DNA of 64,000 bases from Hydrogenimonas sp. GTDB taxonomy: Bacteria > Campylobacterota > Campylobacteria > Campylobacterales > Hydrogenimonadaceae. Where the stretch lies: assembly GCA_003945285.1 (NCBI GenBank), contig AP019005.1, positions 1,626,001 through 1,690,000 of the forward strand, given 5' to 3'. Positions 11,984 through 19,941 of this stretch are shown one piece after another. Position numbers and translations under genes: made by a program. Under the pieces are notes generated by a model, which was not told the DNA's origin, did not search any database, and was given only the letters and a program-made list of their open reading frames with translations. Position 1 is the stretch's first letter, and every line of letters starts with the position of its first letter.

Positions 11984-12523
11984 CTAAACCCCGATCCGTT
12001 TCGCCAACTCTTCATCTATCAGTTCGCCGTACTCCTCCATCAGAGAGCGCGGGTCAAACTCCATTATCAGGTTATCTTTTGAGAAAACTATACTCTTTCG
12101 GCCGGTTTTGACCACCTTGAAAGAGTCCAGGCCTTCGGTATCGAGCTTCTCATATATCTGAAGCTCTCCCTCCCCGAACCTCTTTTTCAGCCACTCCAGA
12201 AAAATCTCAGCCGACTCCCCGAACCTCTCTTCGAGCTCTCTTTCGACACCCTCCAGTACGCCGGACTTCAGCCCGGAGAGAAAGTGCTGCCGCTCTCTCT
12301 CAGTTTCGCTTTCGATCTTCGCTCTTCGCTCCTCCTCGAAAGAGCGAAGCTCCTTTCCCAAAATCTCCTCGGATTCAGCTAAGATTTCGGCGGCCTCCTT
12401 CTCCGCCTCATGCACCTTTTCTTCGGCACGCGCCTTCGCCTCTTCCACTATCTTTTCCGCACGGTTCAGCGCGGAAGCGGTTATCTTTTTGGAAAAGTTT
12501 TCAAAGTCTGATTCCGAGTACAC
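11984..12523 (-). CDS. V/A-type ATPase subunit E (peripheral stalk)
   Basis: Peripheral-stalk (stator) subunit, 179 residues. Residues 10-90 are a long charged coiled coil rich in Ala, Glu, Lys and Arg. The C-terminal half is globular and would bind the head. Position between F and A, size and heptad pattern identify it rather than short motifs. Its start overlaps the end of subunit F by 23 bases. Confidence 0.82.
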   Translation of the reverse strand: MYSESDFENFSKKITASALNRAEKIVEEAKARAEEKVHEAEKEAAEILAESEEILGKELRSFEEERRAKIESETERERQHFLSGLKSGVLEGVERELEERFGESAEIFLEWLKKRFGEGELQIYEKLDTEGLDSFKVVKTGRKSIVFSKDNLIMEFDPRSLMEEYGELIDEELAKRIGV

Positions 12524-12803
12524 CTGAGAGATAACCTTTTATATCCGTTTTTATATGCCTTCCGTCCATGGAGGGGACGAAAACTACGGCCGGGACCGCC
12601 CTCTTTTGCATCTTGGCCGAAAACCTTTCGGAGTATCTGCCGAAAAAGCGGTCGGCGGCTATTATCACACCCGCATCCTCCCTCTCCAGAAGCTCCTCCA
12701 TCTTCTCCGTAAACTCCTTCTCACTCCCTACGGCGAATGTCTGCGCCCCGGCCAGAGCAAAGCCGAGGCACTCATCTTCGTTCCCGAGAAAAAAGAGTCT
12801 CAA
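12501..12803 (-). CDS. V/A-type ATPase subunit F (central shaft cap)
   Basis: A 100-residue protein of the Rossmann-like subunit F fold. It opens MRLFFLGNEDECLGFALAGA, matching the family's 'iaviGd.dtvlGFrLaGv' pattern, and later has DAGVIIAADRFF and a PAVVFVPSMDG loop. Subunit F binds D in the central shaft and modulates ATPase activity. It overlaps subunit K upstream by four bases and E downstream. Confidence 0.88.
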   Translation of the reverse strand: MRLFFLGNEDECLGFALAGAQTFAVGSEKEFTEKMEELLEREDAGVIIAADRFFGRYSERFSAKMQKRAVPAVVFVPSMDGRHIKTDIKGYLSGVLGIRL

Positions 12804-13081
12804 TCGATCTTTCCCAGAATCATTATGGAGACTATAAGGCCGTAGATGGCGATGCCTTCGGCCAACCCGAGAAAGATGAGCGCCCTGCCGGAGATTTCCG
12901 GTTTTTCACCCATCGTGCCCATGGCGGCCGCACCGACCAGCCCCACCGCGATACCGGCGGCTATACAGGCGAGCCCCACCGAAAGGGCGGCGGCTATATA
13001 GGCCCAGGCCTCGGAATCTCCCTCGGCCCACAAAAGAGCGGGAAACATAAGCAGAAGCGGTAGAAGGGATCTCTTTTTCAT
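12800..13081 (-). CDS. V/A-type ATPase membrane rotor subunit K (c-ring)
   Basis: A 93-residue protein: a cleavable-looking signal (residues 1-19, LLWA then EGD), followed by two membrane helices. The second carries the ion-binding Glu75 in LAEGIAIYG. It is a single hairpin, as in Thermus, not the doubled four-helix form of Enterococcus NtpK. I see no Gln in helix 1 and no Ser/Thr next to Glu75, the features usual in Na+-binding rings, so proton coupling is inferred. Confidence 0.92.
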   Translation of the reverse strand: MKKRSLLPLLLMFPALLWAEGDSEAWAYIAAALSVGLACIAAGIAVGLVGAAAMGTMGEKPEISGRALIFLGLAEGIAIYGLIVSIMILGKID

Positions 13082-14895
13082 AGTTCACTCTCCAGCACGA
13101 AAGGCTTGTAGGGCTTGCCGCCCCCTTTGAAAAAACGCTTGAAAAATTCGTAGTATTCGAGTCTCAGCGTCTGTATGGTCACTACGACGCCCTCAAGAAC
13201 TATTATAAAGCAATTTCCTAAAACGATGATAAACCAGTACCCGACTCCGCGGCTGTCGGCTTTCGAGAGGATGTCGGCGATGGAGAATAGGGCCAGGAAG
13301 AGGGCTCCGTGCGCGAGAGCGAATGCTCCCAACCGCGCGAAAGATATGGTGTTTACGGCCTGCTCGAACATCTGGATGAGAGCATCGAGCATGGTCTGTG
13401 CATACTCTCTCCTCTTTATCAGAAGCAGAACTATCAAAAGAGCGACCATCGCACCCAGAAAATAGAGCTCGTATCTGACCGGAAGCTCGAATATCAGCGC
13501 TTTTGCCGCGATGCCTATGGCAAACCAGTAGACCAATAGCCAGAGTACTCCCCCTTCACCCAGAAAGAGGGCCGATATCTCTCCCCTTCGGCCCAAAGAG
13601 ACGATATTGAGCAAAAATCCGACTGTAATGAAAAAGATTCCGATAGCTATGCCGGTGAAGATGCTCAAATCGACGTTTTCGACGGGGACGAAGAGCAGTG
13701 GCGGCACTAAGTCGTGAAATCCGAAAAAAGAGCCGTAGAGGAGTCCGAAGAGCGCCGACCCGGCCCCTGCAAGCATATAGACCTTCCCGAGATCTTCATA
13801 TTTTCCGAATTTTTTCGAGACGAAAAAGCCTGCGGCTATGAGAACCAGGCCATGCCCGATATCGCCGAACATGGCGCCGAACATGACCATAAATGCAAGC
13901 GCAAACGGCACTGTCGGATTTATCTCGTTGTAGCCCGGGTAGGAGAAGCTCTTTATGAGGCTCTCGAAGGGTTTCAATATTTTCGGTGTCTTCAGCAGCA
14001 CGGGCGCATCGTCGCCGGCCCGGGAGAAGCTGACATCGGCATACCCGAGCGCTTCAGCGAAACTCTTCGCCTGCCGCCTGGGCACCCAGCCGTAAAGAAA
14101 ATAGTGGTCCCCCGCCTTCTGCAGAGCACTCCTGACCGCAAAGATCCCAATAGCTCTTTTGAGTTCAAGGTATATATCCTGCAGCCTCTTCGCGTAACGT
14201 TCCGAAACCTTTTTGAACTCACTCTCCAGTTCGCTTCGCATTGCCTCTATCTCGGCCCGTTTGCCCTGAAGCAGATACTCTTTTTCTATCTCGTCGGCTT
14301 CCGTTTTCGATATCGCATTCAATATATGCGCCTCGTCAGGAGGGTCGTAAAAAAGAAGCATGGCGACACTCCCCGATGTGAGAGGCGCATATACCGCAAA
14401 AGGGTCGTAACGCTTGAGTGCCAGCATGAACATCTCTACACTGTCATGCGCCAGAACGACGGCCCTCACTCCTGCATACTCCACCCTCCGTACTATCTCT
14501 TTAGTATCTATATCGCTCTTCAGGGCATCCACGAAGAGCTCGGCACGCTCCAGCCGGTTCTCTTCGCTCTTGAGCCTCTTTCGCCTGTTGGCTAGAGACT
14601 CTATAGAAGGTGCGGCGGAAGAGACGAGTCTCTCCGCCTCCGTCAAAAAGAGTTCATAATCCTCTACACCCTCTTTCGCTCCCCTTTCAGGAACCTTGAC
14701 ACCGAGTATCTCCAGATACCCCTCCACCCTCTCCAGAAGCTTCCCCGCACGCTCCTGAAGCTCGTGAAAAAGGGGCTTCTCACCGCTTCTGTCTATATGA
14801 AGAACTCCGCACTTCCCTATCTCTTCTATGGTCCGGTAGAGATGCGCCGCAGGTATCGAAATCTCCACCCTGACCATTCTTTCGGGAAAGAGCAC
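13078..14895 (-). CDS. V/A-type ATPase subunit I (membrane stator, a-subunit homologue)
   Basis: Large membrane stator subunit of 605 residues. The first half is a soluble, coiled-coil arm. The second half has about seven to eight membrane helices, including the conserved GAMFGDIGHGL segment and the SFARLGAFALAHGALF helix, whose Arg is expected to face the c-ring Glu. Length and layout match family PF01496. It overlaps subunit K by four bases and sits two bases after subunit C, so translation is probably coupled. Confidence 0.93.
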   Translation of the reverse strand: MLFPERMVRVEISIPAAHLYRTIEEIGKCGVLHIDRSGEKPLFHELQERAGKLLERVEGYLEILGVKVPERGAKEGVEDYELFLTEAERLVSSAAPSIESLANRRKRLKSEENRLERAELFVDALKSDIDTKEIVRRVEYAGVRAVVLAHDSVEMFMLALKRYDPFAVYAPLTSGSVAMLLFYDPPDEAHILNAISKTEADEIEKEYLLQGKRAEIEAMRSELESEFKKVSERYAKRLQDIYLELKRAIGIFAVRSALQKAGDHYFLYGWVPRRQAKSFAEALGYADVSFSRAGDDAPVLLKTPKILKPFESLIKSFSYPGYNEINPTVPFALAFMVMFGAMFGDIGHGLVLIAAGFFVSKKFGKYEDLGKVYMLAGAGSALFGLLYGSFFGFHDLVPPLLFVPVENVDLSIFTGIAIGIFFITVGFLLNIVSLGRRGEISALFLGEGGVLWLLVYWFAIGIAAKALIFELPVRYELYFLGAMVALLIVLLLIKRREYAQTMLDALIQMFEQAVNTISFARLGAFALAHGALFLALFSIADILSKADSRGVGYWFIIVLGNCFIIVLEGVVVTIQTLRLEYYEFFKRFFKGGGKPYKPFVLESEL

Positions 14896-14897
14896 GG

Positions 14898-15749
14898 CTA
14901 GACTCCCCCTATCATCTTCTCTATCTCCTCACGCGGAAGCCTGTAGTGGACCCCCTCTATCAGAGACCTTATATCTCTTATCTCCATCTCTTTCATTCTC
15001 AGAAGCGAAAAGATTATCGAGAGCTTGAAAGGGTAGCCGTACCAGACTCCGCGAAGAGTCTTCATATGATATTGGGCAAGTGCCTGCCTGAACTCATGAT
15101 AGCCCGAAAAGGGGCGGCCCACTTTTTCATGAACCAGATCCGATATCTCACCGATCGTCGACATACCCGCCGCCTCGGCAAGAGCGGCCATATCGAAAGA
15201 GAGGCCGTAAGGGGCCAGAAACGGTACAATCTCCTCCGGCTCGAGCCCGTAGAGAATCCTCAGCCGGACCACCGTGTAGAGGTTCAGTATGTCGAAGTAG
15301 CTTCCCAAAATCTTGGAAAGATCGCGTCTGGGCCCACGCTCCATCCCGTAGAGGGTCCGCTCTATCTTCTCTATATACTCGAGGTCCGCCGCTCTATACT
15401 CACTCCTGCTTCCTCCGGCTCTGCCGAGCTCCAGCTTCCGCTTCGCCAGGCGCTCACGCTCGAAGAAGAAGAGGTCGAATATCTCCCTCTCCCTTTTCCC
15501 GAGCATCGATGTACTCTTTTTGTATAGCTCTTCAAAGGAGGCTTCAAGCCCCCTCTCCATGCTCTCCTTTTCGGCATCCGGAATATATTCGGCATAGCGG
15601 CTCCGCTTCAAAAGAGCGTAGATGTCGCCCAGCCCCTCCGCCTGAAGCGCCTTTTCGTAAAATCCTCTGTCGAGCAGGTCGGATTTCAGAGTTCTGCATT
15701 TTGCGTTGATATATCCATATTTCACCGGTTTGAGCATCAACATTCCCAT
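14898..15749 (-). CDS. V/A-type ATPase subunit C (rotor connector, d homologue)
   Basis: Subunit that joins the central shaft to the c-ring, about 284 residues and all alpha-helical. The N-terminal KYGYINAKCRTLKSDLL segment fits the family's 'YgYanarvrames.LL' start. A TTG at 15755 overlapping the preceding stop is an alternative start; the ATG at 15749 has AGAAGGGA about 11 bases upstream and is preferred. Gene position directly before subunit I supports the call. Confidence 0.85.
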   Translation of the reverse strand: MGMLMLKPVKYGYINAKCRTLKSDLLDRGFYEKALQAEGLGDIYALLKRSRYAEYIPDAEKESMERGLEASFEELYKKSTSMLGKREREIFDLFFFERERLAKRKLELGRAGGSRSEYRAADLEYIEKIERTLYGMERGPRRDLSKILGSYFDILNLYTVVRLRILYGLEPEEIVPFLAPYGLSFDMAALAEAAGMSTIGEISDLVHEKVGRPFSGYHEFRQALAQYHMKTLRGVWYGYPFKLSIIFSLLRMKEMEIRDIRSLIEGVHYRLPREEIEKMIGGV

Positions 15750-15751
15750 CT

Positions 15752-16099
15752 TCAAAGATCCCTTCTCATCTCCGAAGAGAACCGCCGCAAAATCGCATCC
15801 GCAATCTCTTTTGCAGCCTTTTTGTCTGAGAAACCGGAGGCCATGCGCCTCTTCCAGGCTTCAAGCTCTTCCAGCTTTTTACGCTCCAAAAGTTCGAGCG
15901 ACCTCTGCAGCTTCGAAAACTCTTCGTGCCTCTTTCGTGCCGCATCTCTTTGGGCTCCTGACACGATCTCTTCACTGCGGCGCTCCGCACGTGAGACAAT
16001 CTCGGCCGCTTCACTCTCGGCACTCGAGACTATCTGTGCTGCTCTCCTGTCGACTTCGATAACCCTGTGTGTAAGATCCGCCATATTTGCCCTTTTCAT
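15752..16099 (-). CDS. V/A-type ATPase subunit G/H (peripheral stalk)
   Basis: A 115-residue charged coiled-coil protein, the usual partner of subunit E in the peripheral stalk. Residues 15-90 show uninterrupted heptads rich in Ala, Glu, Arg and Lys. It is the first gene of the ATPase operon, 28 bases after the nucleotidyltransferase stop. No short motif is diagnostic; the call rests on size, composition and position. An internal ATG (MADLTHRV) is a possible alternative start. Confidence 0.8.
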   Translation of the reverse strand: MKRANMADLTHRVIEVDRRAAQIVSSAESEAAEIVSRAERRSEEIVSGAQRDAARKRHEEFSKLQRSLELLERKKLEELEAWKRRMASGFSDKKAAKEIADAILRRFSSEMRRDL

Positions 16100-16127: not shown

Positions 16128-17213
16128 TCAAAAAAGGTGTTTTCGTATATGGTAGATGATGTATCGCAAGAGGGCGAGCGGGTACTCCCTCTTCGATCTG
16201 AGACCGTAGAAGCTCTTCAGTGCCTCGTATGAGTAGATATCCCCCCTCTCCGTATATGCCCTGTAGAGTTTGAAGATTTTCGTATCCTCCTCCAGTGTAG
16301 ATTGCCATAGCGACTTTTTCAGGTGGAGCCATCCTCCAAGGCGATTAAACCCGATAGGAGTCTTCAACCCGAAGAGAGCCCCGGCGCCGTATAGAAAATC
16401 TTCCAGAATCTTCTCATGCCCGTACCTTCGGGCAAGCTCGTAGAGTTCACTCCACTCTACTCTATCTTCATAGGCTTCGGCAATCATCACGAAGTCGTAG
16501 AGATATCGCAGCCCCAGCCTCCATCTGTCGTGGTTCCGGTCTATAACCGCGCTGTGCAGAAAAGCGTGGTAGAGATGCCATGTAGGCTTGAGAACACGTG
16601 AATCGGCGAAAAGGGGATTTGAGCTCTGCATCGAACTCGTTTCACTGTACGGTATATACTCGATCTCCGGGTCGAAAACTATCCGAAAGTGCGGCTCCAA
16701 CGCTGCAGGATACCCCTCTTTGGCCATTCTCCTCGTATGATGGTGCCAGCGTCCGAGCTCTCTTCCGAACTCTGCATAGCCGCTCTCCCTGAGCAGAAGA
16801 AGCGCTCTTTTGAAAAATCTCTCTTCGATCATGATATCGATATCGTTCATAAGACGCATTCCGATATCCGGGTAGAGCCCTTCGCTCAGAACCGCGGCCC
16901 CCTTCAGAAAAAGGGGGACTATCCCCTCTTTTCGGAGTGTGCTCTGAATATCCTGAAGCTGAAGAACGATATTTTCGTTTCGCTTTCTGTTCAGTTCGTA
17001 TATCTCCCGCAGAAAGCCTTTGAGCATATCGTCGTTCAACAGCTTAAGCAGCCCTCCCTCTCTCAAAACCGCAAAGAGTGCCGGAGTCAGCAGCTCGGTA
17101 TTCGCCACTTCAACAAGATACTCCCACTCCACAAGCCCGTTTTCTATGAGGCGGGCGCTCTCTTCCAGCCTGCCGCCGCGTTGGGCTGATGAGAGCATTT
17201 TACACAGCTGCAC
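16128..17213 (-). CDS. Nucleotidyltransferase family protein (PF14907-like) of a RiPP-like cassette
   Basis: Predicted nucleotidyl-transferring enzyme of the pol-beta-like fold. The segment LFLKGAAVLSEGLYPDIGMRLMNDIDIMI carries the expected KG and D-x-D metal-binding pair; numbered from an ATG at 17279 these are about residues 126 and 146-148. The rest is alpha-helical. That ATG lies 53 bases inside the kinase gene. The GTG at 17213, with AAAAGAGAT upstream, is preferred here. Family members are known from peptide-modification loci (including some lasso-peptide clusters) and beside HprK-related kinases. Here it directly follows such a kinase. The substrate is unknown; the peptide encoded upstream is the obvious candidate. 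Confidence 0.72.
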   Translation of the reverse strand: MQLCKMLSSAQRGGRLEESARLIENGLVEWEYLVEVANTELLTPALFAVLREGGLLKLLNDDMLKGFLREIYELNRKRNENIVLQLQDIQSTLRKEGIVPLFLKGAAVLSEGLYPDIGMRLMNDIDIMIEERFFKRALLLLRESGYAEFGRELGRWHHHTRRMAKEGYPAALEPHFRIVFDPEIEYIPYSETSSMQSSNPLFADSRVLKPTWHLYHAFLHSAVIDRNHDRWRLGLRYLYDFVMIAEAYEDRVEWSELYELARRYGHEKILEDFLYGAGALFGLKTPIGFNRLGGWLHLKKSLWQSTLEEDTKIFKLYRAYTERGDIYSYEALKSFYGLRSKREYPLALLRYIIYHIRKHLF

Positions 17214-17226
17214 TATCTCTTTTCGT

Positions 17227-18357
17227 CTATCGGCCAACCAACCGCTCCAGACTCTCCACCCCCTCTTCGAGCGATCCATACTCCATCGAGTATGCCGGCA
17301 CCGACAGAATCGTGGAGAGAATCTCTTCGAAGCTACTGACGGTAAGAGGAGAACCGAGCTGGTACCCGGCCTCCTTTATAAGCTTAAGTGTCTCACATGC
17401 GCCGAGGCTCCTGACGCGGCTCTCACCCCCCTCTATATATCGCGGGAAGACCAGCACCGATACCTCTCCTCTCCTCTTGGAAAGGTTTCTCGGCGGCAGT
17501 GACTTCACCCTCCGGCCGTCAAACCGCATATAGGTCCGGGCATCTTTTAAAGATGGATACCTATCACTCAGAACTTCCCAACTCCCCTCTTTGATATTGA
17601 TGCCGAAAGGTATTGCAGAGACTCCGCCGTCACTATCTACAAGAGCTATCTCATCGGAAAAGAGAGAGTGGCCTTTGGAGAGAAGAGCGGCTGTAAGAGT
17701 ACTTTTGCCTGAGCCGCTCGAACCGGGGAGAAGCAGGGTGGCAGACCCCACTCCTACAGCTCCCGCATGTATCGCCATGAGGTAGGGTTCGCACTGGTAG
17801 TAGAGTATGATCATATTCTCCTGCAGAATCAGAGGTATCGTATCTCCCCGCGCCGCAGTAGCTACAGGGGTTGAATTGAAAAGGAGCCTCCAGCCGGACC
17901 CGACCGCTTCGAAGTCCACATTGACCCTCTTTTTACCCCCCGCTTCACCGCGCATATGCGCAAAAAGAGGATCAATCTTCTCTTCCAACTCCCCGTTGGG
18001 ATAGGCTATATGAAAAATCACCCTTCCGGTATCGTAGCAGAATCTCTCTCTATCCTCTTCTATGAACTCGCCCAGACTCAACGGAGCTTCATACTCTTCA
18101 TGCCCCTCTTCGAACCGTCCGAATCTGAGATCTATCAATCTTTTGATATCTGAAGGAGAAATTTTGGGGAGTAGTGTCGGTATAGAGTTCTCCTCATGCT
18201 TTTCGAGAAGCTCATCTATCTGTAGGAACAGTGCGGCCTGCTCCCTCTCGAGCCCGTATACACGGCCGCTTCTTTCAAAAAAGAGAAGCAGAGACTCCCC
18301 GTCGATATAGGCGAGGGCGGAGTCGGCATAGAGAGGGCACTTTTGAAACTTTTCCAA
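17227..18357 (-). CDS. HPr-kinase-like enzyme with N-terminal PqqD-like segment
   Basis: Protein of 376 residues. The C-terminal half resembles the HPr kinase/phosphorylase P-loop fold: AIHAGAV (His197), P-loop PGSSGSGKST at 211-220, and an acidic SDEIALVD at 234-241. It is too divergent and in the wrong context to be genuine HprK. Residues 15-60 (ESLLLFFERSGRVYGLEREQ onward) look like a PqqD/RRE peptide-binding domain. The start is a TTG 24 bases after the small peptide gene; no good ATG was found upstream. I infer a peptide kinase that recognises the leader of the adjacent peptide. NCBI families of 'HprK-related kinase A' with PqqD partners are the nearest known concept, cited from memory. 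Confidence 0.7.
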   Translation of the reverse strand: MEKFQKCPLYADSALAYIDGESLLLFFERSGRVYGLEREQAALFLQIDELLEKHEENSIPTLLPKISPSDIKRLIDLRFGRFEEGHEEYEAPLSLGEFIEEDRERFCYDTGRVIFHIAYPNGELEEKIDPLFAHMRGEAGGKKRVNVDFEAVGSGWRLLFNSTPVATAARGDTIPLILQENMIILYYQCEPYLMAIHAGAVGVGSATLLLPGSSGSGKSTLTAALLSKGHSLFSDEIALVDSDGGVSAIPFGINIKEGSWEVLSDRYPSLKDARTYMRFDGRRVKSLPPRNLSKRRGEVSVLVFPRYIEGGESRVRSLGACETLKLIKEAGYQLGSPLTVSSFEEILSTILSVPAYSMEYGSLEEGVESLERLVGR

Positions 18358-18381
18358 AAAAGTTATGCTGTCTTCATCTTC

Positions 18382-18579
18382 TTACGGTCCTTGATGCCCA
18401 TGATGCCCATGATGTCCATGGTGCCCACAGGAGCCCGACGCCTGGGCTTTGGAGGAGCCTGGTCCCATCAGAAGATACATTCCAAGAGGTGCGGAAGCGG
18501 CAAATTTACCGTATTTGATCATAAACTCCCGTTTCGCCTCATCCACACTCACTTCTTTCTGTTTTATATCTCTTTTCAC
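18382..18579 (-). CDS. Putative ribosomally made, modified peptide precursor with Gly-His-His tail
   Basis: A 65-residue peptide from a GTG start with AAAGGA seven bases upstream. Residues 1-25 are charged (leader-like). Residues 25-42 are hydrophobic (YGKFAASAPLGMYLLMGPG). Then follow SSKAQASGS and a 15-residue C-terminal tail CGHHGHHGHHGHQGP with one Cys and seven His. The tail could be a modified core or a metal-binding tag, and AQA could be a cleavage site. It lies directly upstream of the kinase and nucleotidyltransferase genes on the same strand. No known precursor family was recognised; coding status is supported by the SD site and the clear leader/tail layout. Confidence 0.65.
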   Translation of the reverse strand: MKRDIKQKEVSVDEAKREFMIKYGKFAASAPLGMYLLMGPGSSKAQASGSCGHHGHHGHHGHQGP

Positions 18580-18678
18580 GGTATATCCTTTCTCTCCATT
18601 CCAACTATTAGAACATATTTGACTTTATACATATCTTAACTTGTACAAATGGAAAAAATGCAATAGGCGCAGATATCT

Positions 18679-19941
18679 TCAGTATCTGATAAAATCGCCC
18701 ATTGCCACATATGTGCCGGGCAGCTTAATCGATTTAGATACCCACAGATAATCGAGATCGATCGAATAGAATTTAGCCTCACAGTTCGCACAGCTGTAGA
18801 AGTAGCGTCCGCTCTCGTCGATATAGCTCGTATGCGCCTGGGCATTCTTGCCGGCTGCCCACTCTTCGGAAGTGAGGGGTTTCGCCACTTCGATGTTGCC
18901 CACAACCTTCGGGCTCTGCGGGTTCGAGAGATCGACAACCGTTACATATGTAGCTTTATGGTTGGTTACGACAGCCAGCCTTTTGGGGATGGAGAAGGTT
19001 ATGTGCCCGGCACCCAGACCCGCCCGGAAAGCGGCGACTGAACTCATACTGTTTTTGTCAACCACATAGACCTTTCCGCTGTAGGTAGGCATGAAGATAT
19101 ACTTGTCACCGTAGAACGCGGCATGATGGACCCCTCCGTCTTCGTGGGCAGCATGGAAGACCGTATCGACCGTTATCGCGTTCGAAGAGTCTATCGTGAA
19201 TTTCATGATGCCGGCGGCCGGTATGGAGCCATTTTCAGCATCATTGGGCCCTTCAAGAGTCATATAGTATGTTCCGTTGCCTGAGGAGTCGACTTCGGAA
19301 GAGAGGGTCAGAACATGGTGTGCCGTTGTCTCCGTATCGATCTGCGCAAGCGGTGTCTCGCTATCTTTGCTGTAGAGAATAAGTTTTCTGTTTACTCTAT
19401 CGAGCATCAGAAAGCGTCTGCCGTCGGCAAGCCAGAAGGGGTGACCGGTAGCGTTGCCTCCCCCGAAATAGTTTGACGAGTCTACCGGGTGAACCGAGGT
19501 ATCGACATCTTCACCGAAGTACCTTTTTACCTCATGATCCGTTTTACCTATGGTGGCAGACATCGGTTTTGTTTTGCCTGACACCAGCACAAGATCCAGG
19601 TTGTCTAGGGTAGCGGTAGACCTGGGGTGAAATTTCAGCGGGATCACCTTGACAACCCTGTTCTCTCTGAAGTTTATCACCGCTATGGAGTCTCCCCTGC
19701 GCGTAAGAGCGAAAGCTTCCGTATCGGTTTCACAATCGACCCCGTAGGGCCCCAGGGCAGGGGAGACATTCATTACAGCATCGAGACTCATTCTGTCGAC
19801 ATCTATGTTGAAGACTTTGGTCGACTCATAGTCACCGTAAAGGGCATGTGTACTCGGCTCTACACCGTTGCCGTCGCTGTCACATCCGCTAAGGCCGAAG
19901 AGGGCGGCGGTTACAACAGCAGCCAGGAGTGGCTTTCTCAT
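18679..19941 (-). CDS. Beta-propeller lipoprotein upstream of the RiPP-like genes
   Basis: Secreted lipoprotein of about 420 residues. The start chosen is the ATG at 19941 (MRKPLLAA), with AAAGGATG upstream. A lipobox LSGC follows at residues 18-21. The body has repeated strand blocks such as DSIAVINFRENRVVKV, KLILYSKDSETPLAQI, KVYVVDKNSMSSV and YVTVVDLSNPQSPKV, as in seven-bladed YVTN/LVIVD-type propellers. A late CANC pair could bind metal. It precedes the His-tailed peptide gene by about 100 bases on the same strand, so it may act on or receive that peptide outside the cytoplasm. That link is inferred. Confidence 0.7.
   Translation of the reverse strand: MRKPLLAAVVTAALFGLSGCDSDGNGVEPSTHALYGDYESTKVFNIDVDRMSLDAVMNVSPALGPYGVDCETDTEAFALTRRGDSIAVINFRENRVVKVIPLKFHPRSTATLDNLDLVLVSGKTKPMSATIGKTDHEVKRYFGEDVDTSVHPVDSSNYFGGGNATGHPFWLADGRRFLMLDRVNRKLILYSKDSETPLAQIDTETTAHHVLTLSSEVDSSGNGTYYMTLEGPNDAENGSIPAAGIMKFTIDSSNAITVDTVFHAAHEDGGVHHAAFYGDKYIFMPTYSGKVYVVDKNSMSSVAAFRAGLGAGHITFSIPKRLAVVTNHKATYVTVVDLSNPQSPKVVGNIEVAKPLTSEEWAAGKNAQAHTSYIDESGRYFYSCANCEAKFYSIDLDYLWVSKSIKLPGTYVAMGDFIRY

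Follow-up and report, generated by a model that had tools for sequence, protein, structure and literature searches.

What does an HprK-like kinase phosphorylate in a bacterium without HPr? The question is raised by four genes within a 64,000-nucleotide stretch of the genome of Hydrogenimonas sp. (contig AP019005.1, positions 1,626,001 to 1,690,000; hereafter the window), encoding a β-propeller lipoprotein, a 65-residue peptide, the kinase and a PF14907 protein (Table 1). All four open reading frames are present as listed in an earlier, sequence-only reading, which proposed that the peptide is phosphorylated and/or nucleotidylated and then exported, with the propeller as partner. The main elements of that proposal, namely a precursor with a leader and a variable core, an HprK-like kinase bearing an RRE and a nucleotidyltransferase, are upheld by the present analysis, whereas the histidine tail is not a defining part and the propeller is not obligatory. 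We consider the cassette to be, with a probability of about two in three as judged from sequence, structural models and analogy, a RiPP-like system for export-coupled peptide phosphorylation.

Table 1. The cassette and its parts, in window coordinates
Feature	Positions	Strand	Product	Basis or remark
β-Propeller lipoprotein	18679..19941	(-)	420 aa	several invariant His; optional partner
Precursor peptide (putative)	18382-18579	(-)	65 aa, GTG start	
Precursor leader (putative), ending ...GSSKAQA	18439..18579	(-)	residues 1-47	leader conservation and co-occurrence with kinase
Precursor core (putative), SGSCGHHGHHGHHGHQGP + stop	18382..18438	(-)	residues 48-65	core +1 Ser invariance; cleavage after AQA inferred from AxA motif
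RRE-HprK-like fusion kinase (RRE predicted)	17227..18357	(-)	376 aa, TTG start	
Kinase N-terminal RRE/PqqD-like domain (predicted)	18118..18357	(-)	residues ~1-80	AF2 model, homologues' PF05402 matches, profile comparison
Kinase HprK/PEPCK-fold domain	17227..17790	(-)	residues ~190-376	family match, invariant H197/K218/D235, fold match
PF14907 nucleotidyltransferase-like protein	16128..17279	(-)	383 aa as listed	PF14907 E=3.1e-37; overlaps kinase end

The kinase and its neighbours

The NCBI family nearest to the kinase is HprK-related kinase A (TIGR04352), matched at 93.7 bits, below the 200-bit cut-off, and the score against the HprK equivalog falls far below its own cut-off. The three residues named in Table 1 are invariant across 19 kinase homologues. 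An AF2 model built from 19 sequences reaches a mean pLDDT of 92.8, and a whole-chain fold search with this model returns PEPCK and HprK structures, with PqqD absent among the matches listed. The sequence-only reading was right that the window holds no canonical HPr, and the absence (PF00381) extends to the whole genome and all 18 congeners.

The assignment of the kinase N-terminus to the RRE/PqqD-type fold, also proposed earlier, is a prediction that reaches the window protein indirectly, via its homologues. In the AF2 model, residues 15-78 form three strands followed by three helices, which is the RRE/PqqD layout. Although a Pfam search with the window kinase itself gives no PqqD match at the N-terminus, the distant fused homologues L049 and L053 exceed the Pfam cut-off for PqqD (PF05402), and the N-terminus of L049 matches the lasso-pathway B1 proteins TbiB1/TfuB1 in the PDB. 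Profile comparison of kinase N-termini from outside the Campylobacterota with stand-alone PqqD proteins gives P=1.5e-12. The Campylobacterota-only profile matches both stand-alone PqqD (P=0.018) and the other kinase N-termini (P=0.008) weakly, in the right register, and the P=9.4e-8 of the combined profile against PqqD is non-independent, as that profile contains the clear homologues.

Downstream of the kinase, the Pfam match confirms the PF14907-like nucleotidyltransferase, although homologue lengths suggest a true start nearer 17237. The gene directly follows the kinase in those congeners whose contig covers the region, except at L040, where its orientation is opposite. Just downstream of the cassette (11984-16099) lie minus-strand genes that, judged by eye, resemble V/A-type ATPase subunits, among them a proteolipid (12800-13081) and a subunit I-like protein (13078-14895).

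The partnership of the propeller proved to be partial: the gene adjoins the kinase in eight of the 11 genomes that carry the enzyme and is present in one of the seven that lack it (association p=0.05), but it is optional, and kinase loci outside the genus showed no copy. Matches in the PDB include cd1 nitrite reductase, NirF, NirN, AztD and other propellers, and no single function fits. A distant paralogue (L044 3951-5309, genome G074), with 27% identity, keeps His167, 208, 263, 272, 273, 313, 328 and 370, which suggests a metal site near the propeller axis; both proteins weakly match the L-NosZ model. A second propeller copy in genome G249 (L042 10078-11349) lies beside proB/obg, in the company of neither peptide, kinase nor PF14907 gene.

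A leader that accompanies the kinase

Pfam and NCBIfam searches with the 65-residue peptide return no family match. Among nine relatives, codon differences within the leader comprise 547 synonymous and 200 non-synonymous changes when read in frame, and in the other two frames the ratios are 60:710 and 43:733; this reversal out of frame marks the peptide as the product of a real gene. Mean identity of the leader is 84% over 35 residues (nine relatives), versus 48% for the kinase.

The distribution of the leader follows that of the kinase. A kinase profile search finds the enzyme in 11 of 18 congeneric genomes; with a profile of the leader alone, exactly these 11 give a match and the seven lacking the kinase give none (exact p=3e-5). 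Within 397 Campylobacterota genomes the leader occurs in two only, both congeners with a full-length kinase match; in one further genome of this set, the match to the kinase profile is confined to a P-loop stretch of 56 residues. Weak leader-like matches in two genomes (G001 and G145) lie inside open frames of 851 and 391 codons, were not confirmed by the leader profile and were rejected. At ten of the 11 loci the precursor gene lies immediately upstream of that for the kinase, so that the small gene is indeed kept beside the kinase in relatives. Genome G264 (L040) carries three precursors some 3 to 5 kb from the kinase, on the same strand of the kinase contig. Two precursors share the kinase contig in G258, and G251 has a second precursor unlinked to the kinase (L145 4886-5407), with a full leader and a 122-residue core.

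The proposed layout of a leader plus a tail is borne out by the relatives, in which the leader is conserved and the core is not. After the AxA motif the sequences diverge into GHHGHHGHHGHQGP, GHGGHGGHGG, RPGRPGRPCRPRP, RHRHRRKSRRNRQHHRP or domains of ~50-120 residues, so that one leader type precedes unrelated cores: GH-rich, RP-rich or RH-rich tails, or globular domains of up to 120 aa. The His/Gly-rich core is found in three species, and the cores of the others lack His richness. The His-rich tail, which had given the peptide its description, can therefore be dismissed as a conserved feature, since sister species pair the same leader with RP-rich, RH-rich or globular cores. What the tabulated cores do share is their first residue, Ser in all 15 precursors, a count that excludes two of the three G264 precursors, which have Asn there. 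The only hydroxyl residues of the window core are Ser48 and Ser50, and several of the precursors have Thr at core position +3.

The leader itself, of pattern DxxKRxFMxKxGK...AxA, combines a Tat-like KRxFM, a hydrophobic stretch and an AQA site, and hence also looks like an export signal of the Tat/Sec type. KRxFM is found in most of the genus, with RR at L041 and in other phyla. Use of the Tat route by the window leader is uncertain, as KR replaces RR; TatC is present in the genome, and the Sec route is also conceivable. None of 15 leaders checked contains [YW]xxP or Px9Fx[TA].

Related loci and known pathways

Relatives of the kinase in sphingomonads, planctomycetes, Chloroflexi and other groups adjoin PF14907 genes, and many of the loci outside the phylum also have PqqD, fused or separate. 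Filtering by a simple motif places a Tat-like open reading frame upstream at 19 of 49 kinase and PF14907 loci in other phyla; the corresponding counts are 6 of 170 for control windows and 5 of 49 for windows on the opposite strand. The filter found none in the remaining 30 loci and missed some known examples, so 19 is likely an undercount. In other phyla these upstream frames carry a true RRxFL motif. A conserved upstream Tat-signal protein was also noted at sphingomonad HprK_rel_A loci (L060, L061, L066-L068, L114, L116, L122 and others), mostly ending in GFTC[YF]ASLQMPR. A profile built from ten such sphingomonad sequences picks out a member at 24 sphingomonad-type loci, on the same strand as the kinase, mostly within ~350 bp upstream and otherwise ~1.6-1.8 kb upstream; at L117 it is an overlapping long open reading frame. 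None of the Tat-signal proteins tested has a named family. On these sequence grounds, the sphingomonad protein may be what the HPr-rel-A system (TIGR04352 kinase, TIGR04353 PqqD) acts on. The window cassette shares with that system the combination of PqqD, HprK-related kinase and PF14907, and differs in the low kinase score (93.7 vs the cut-off of 200, which the Sphingobium kinase of L063 exceeds) and in the fusion of its PqqD-like domain. A literature search of limited scope returned no paper on HPr-rel-A, TIGR04352, TIGR04353 or PF14907.

The closest described parallel is found in the clusters for linear polyphosphorylated peptides (LPP) of Bacillota, in which an HprK-like kinase is encoded together with a discrete RRE, an NTP transferase, an SpI-like peptidase and an MsbA-like exporter (PMC13381572). 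LPP precursors have a conserved leader (YxxPxVLxHQxIxFETxxS) and are otherwise highly variable, 35-200 aa in length, and their clusters contain no macrolactam cyclase (PMC13381572). LppK places several phosphates on core Ser3 and rejects the S3T variant (PMC13381572). The window likewise pairs an HprK-like kinase and an NTP transferase with a variable-core precursor. In contrast to LPP, its RRE-like domain is fused to the kinase, its leader is Tat-like and without YxxP or [Y/W]xxP, and its host is a diderm. Inspection by eye of the neighbouring open reading frames of the window and of the congener loci listed recognised neither an SpI-type peptidase nor an MsbA-type exporter. The system shares the logic of the LPP pathway but falls outside LPP as judged by leader motif and discrete RRE.

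A second parallel is the tailoring of paeninodin and pseudomycoidin (PadeK, ThcoK, PsmK, PsmN), which also joins an HprK-like kinase and an annotated nucleotidyltransferase on a ribosomal peptide substrate. PsmK phosphorylates pseudomycoidin, and PsmN is required for its hexoses, which are carried on phospho-Ser (PMC9266682). Nucleotidylation of the peptide, as proposed in the sequence-only reading, is consequently only one reading of PF14907. The window system differs in having no B2 protease, and the serines of its core lie next to the leader, whereas the modified Ser of lasso peptides is C-terminal.

A model of export-coupled phosphorylation and its alternatives

In the model that we propose, the 65-residue protein would be a precursor whose leader serves both as docking site for the kinase-fused RRE and as export signal. 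In the cytoplasm, the RRE would hold the leader while the HprK-like domain phosphorylates Ser48 and/or Ser50, the hydroxyls beside the cleavage site, and the PF14907 protein would then act on the phosphoserine, transferring a nucleotidyl group or a sugar. Export of the modified peptide by general machinery (Tat, or Sec) would follow, and a general signal peptidase would cleave it after AQA. We infer every one of these steps, from binding and phosphorylation, with its site, to the second reaction, export route and cleavage; phosphorylation fits, by analogy, the experimentally studied relatives LppK, PadeK and PsmK. Weighing against the model are the missing Pfam PqqD match of the window kinase and the weak profile scores of the Campylobacterota N-termini, the absence of PqqD from the fold matches listed, the lack of [Y/W]xxP in the leader, KR in its Tat-like motif, the 30 of 49 loci in other phyla that gave no Tat-like frame, and the Thr at +3 of several precursors, a residue that LppK does not accept in place of Ser3.

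Among other explanations, the small protein might be an ordinary exported metal-binding protein rich in histidine, with the two enzymes serving another target, such as a polysaccharide or another protein. The His/Gly-rich cores of three species, the AxA-type signal, the many invariant His of the propeller and the polysaccharide export, chain-length or glycosyltransferase genes adjoining the kinase/PF14907 loci L046, L075 and L040 would agree with this. It nevertheless appears unlikely, as other species have cores without such His richness and the conservation of the leader far exceeds the needs of export and tracks the kinase genome by genome. The same three loci, together with the location of LPP loci in polysaccharide regions (PMC13381572), might instead indicate that variable peptides are anchored to a surface glycan, PF14907 and glycosyltransferases adding sugars at phospho-Ser to yield peptide-polysaccharide conjugates. 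The PsmN-dependent hexoses offer a precedent for such a reaction, but the window cassette lies outside any evident polysaccharide region, and we hold this explanation to be quite improbable.

Two further identities have very little in their favour. A diverged lasso peptide cluster could contain a kinase and a nucleotidyltransferase, both known lasso tailoring enzymes, yet Transglut_core3 (the B2 protein, PF13471), whose absence contradicts a lasso identity, is found in none of the 18 congeneric genomes, neither the cassette genes nor the listed neighbour open reading frames of relatives include a recognised cyclase, and the leader lacks [Y/W]xxP; we give it hardly any weight. The HprK fold could point to a genuine HPr kinase engaged in PTS regulation. 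This too is extremely improbable, given the equivalog score, and with HPr missing from all 18 genomes the enzyme does not function as an HPr kinase: the PTS reading is refuted by the absence of an HPr-like substrate.

The proposed export-coupled peptide phosphorylation resembles the LPP pathway, described in 2026 from Gram-positive bacteria only, and is distinct from it in the fused RRE, the leader motif and the diderm host. As LPPs and paeninodins have been called restricted to Bacillota (PMC13381572), it would extend HprK-tailored ribosomal peptides to diderm bacteria, couple leader recognition to an export signal and provide candidate substrates for HprK-related/PqqD/PF14907 systems; leader-dependent phosphorylation at Ser48/Ser50 is its testable prediction. 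More tentatively, and with odds that we place clearly below even, the cassette may belong to a widespread class of ribosomal peptide modification, spanning at least Campylobacterota, Pseudomonadota, Planctomycetota and Chloroflexota. In such a class, recognition of a Tat-type export signal by a PqqD-type RRE would ensure that only phosphorylated (then nucleotidylated or phosphoglycosylated) proteins are exported. If true, this would reveal what the HprK-related kinase A/PqqD systems act on.
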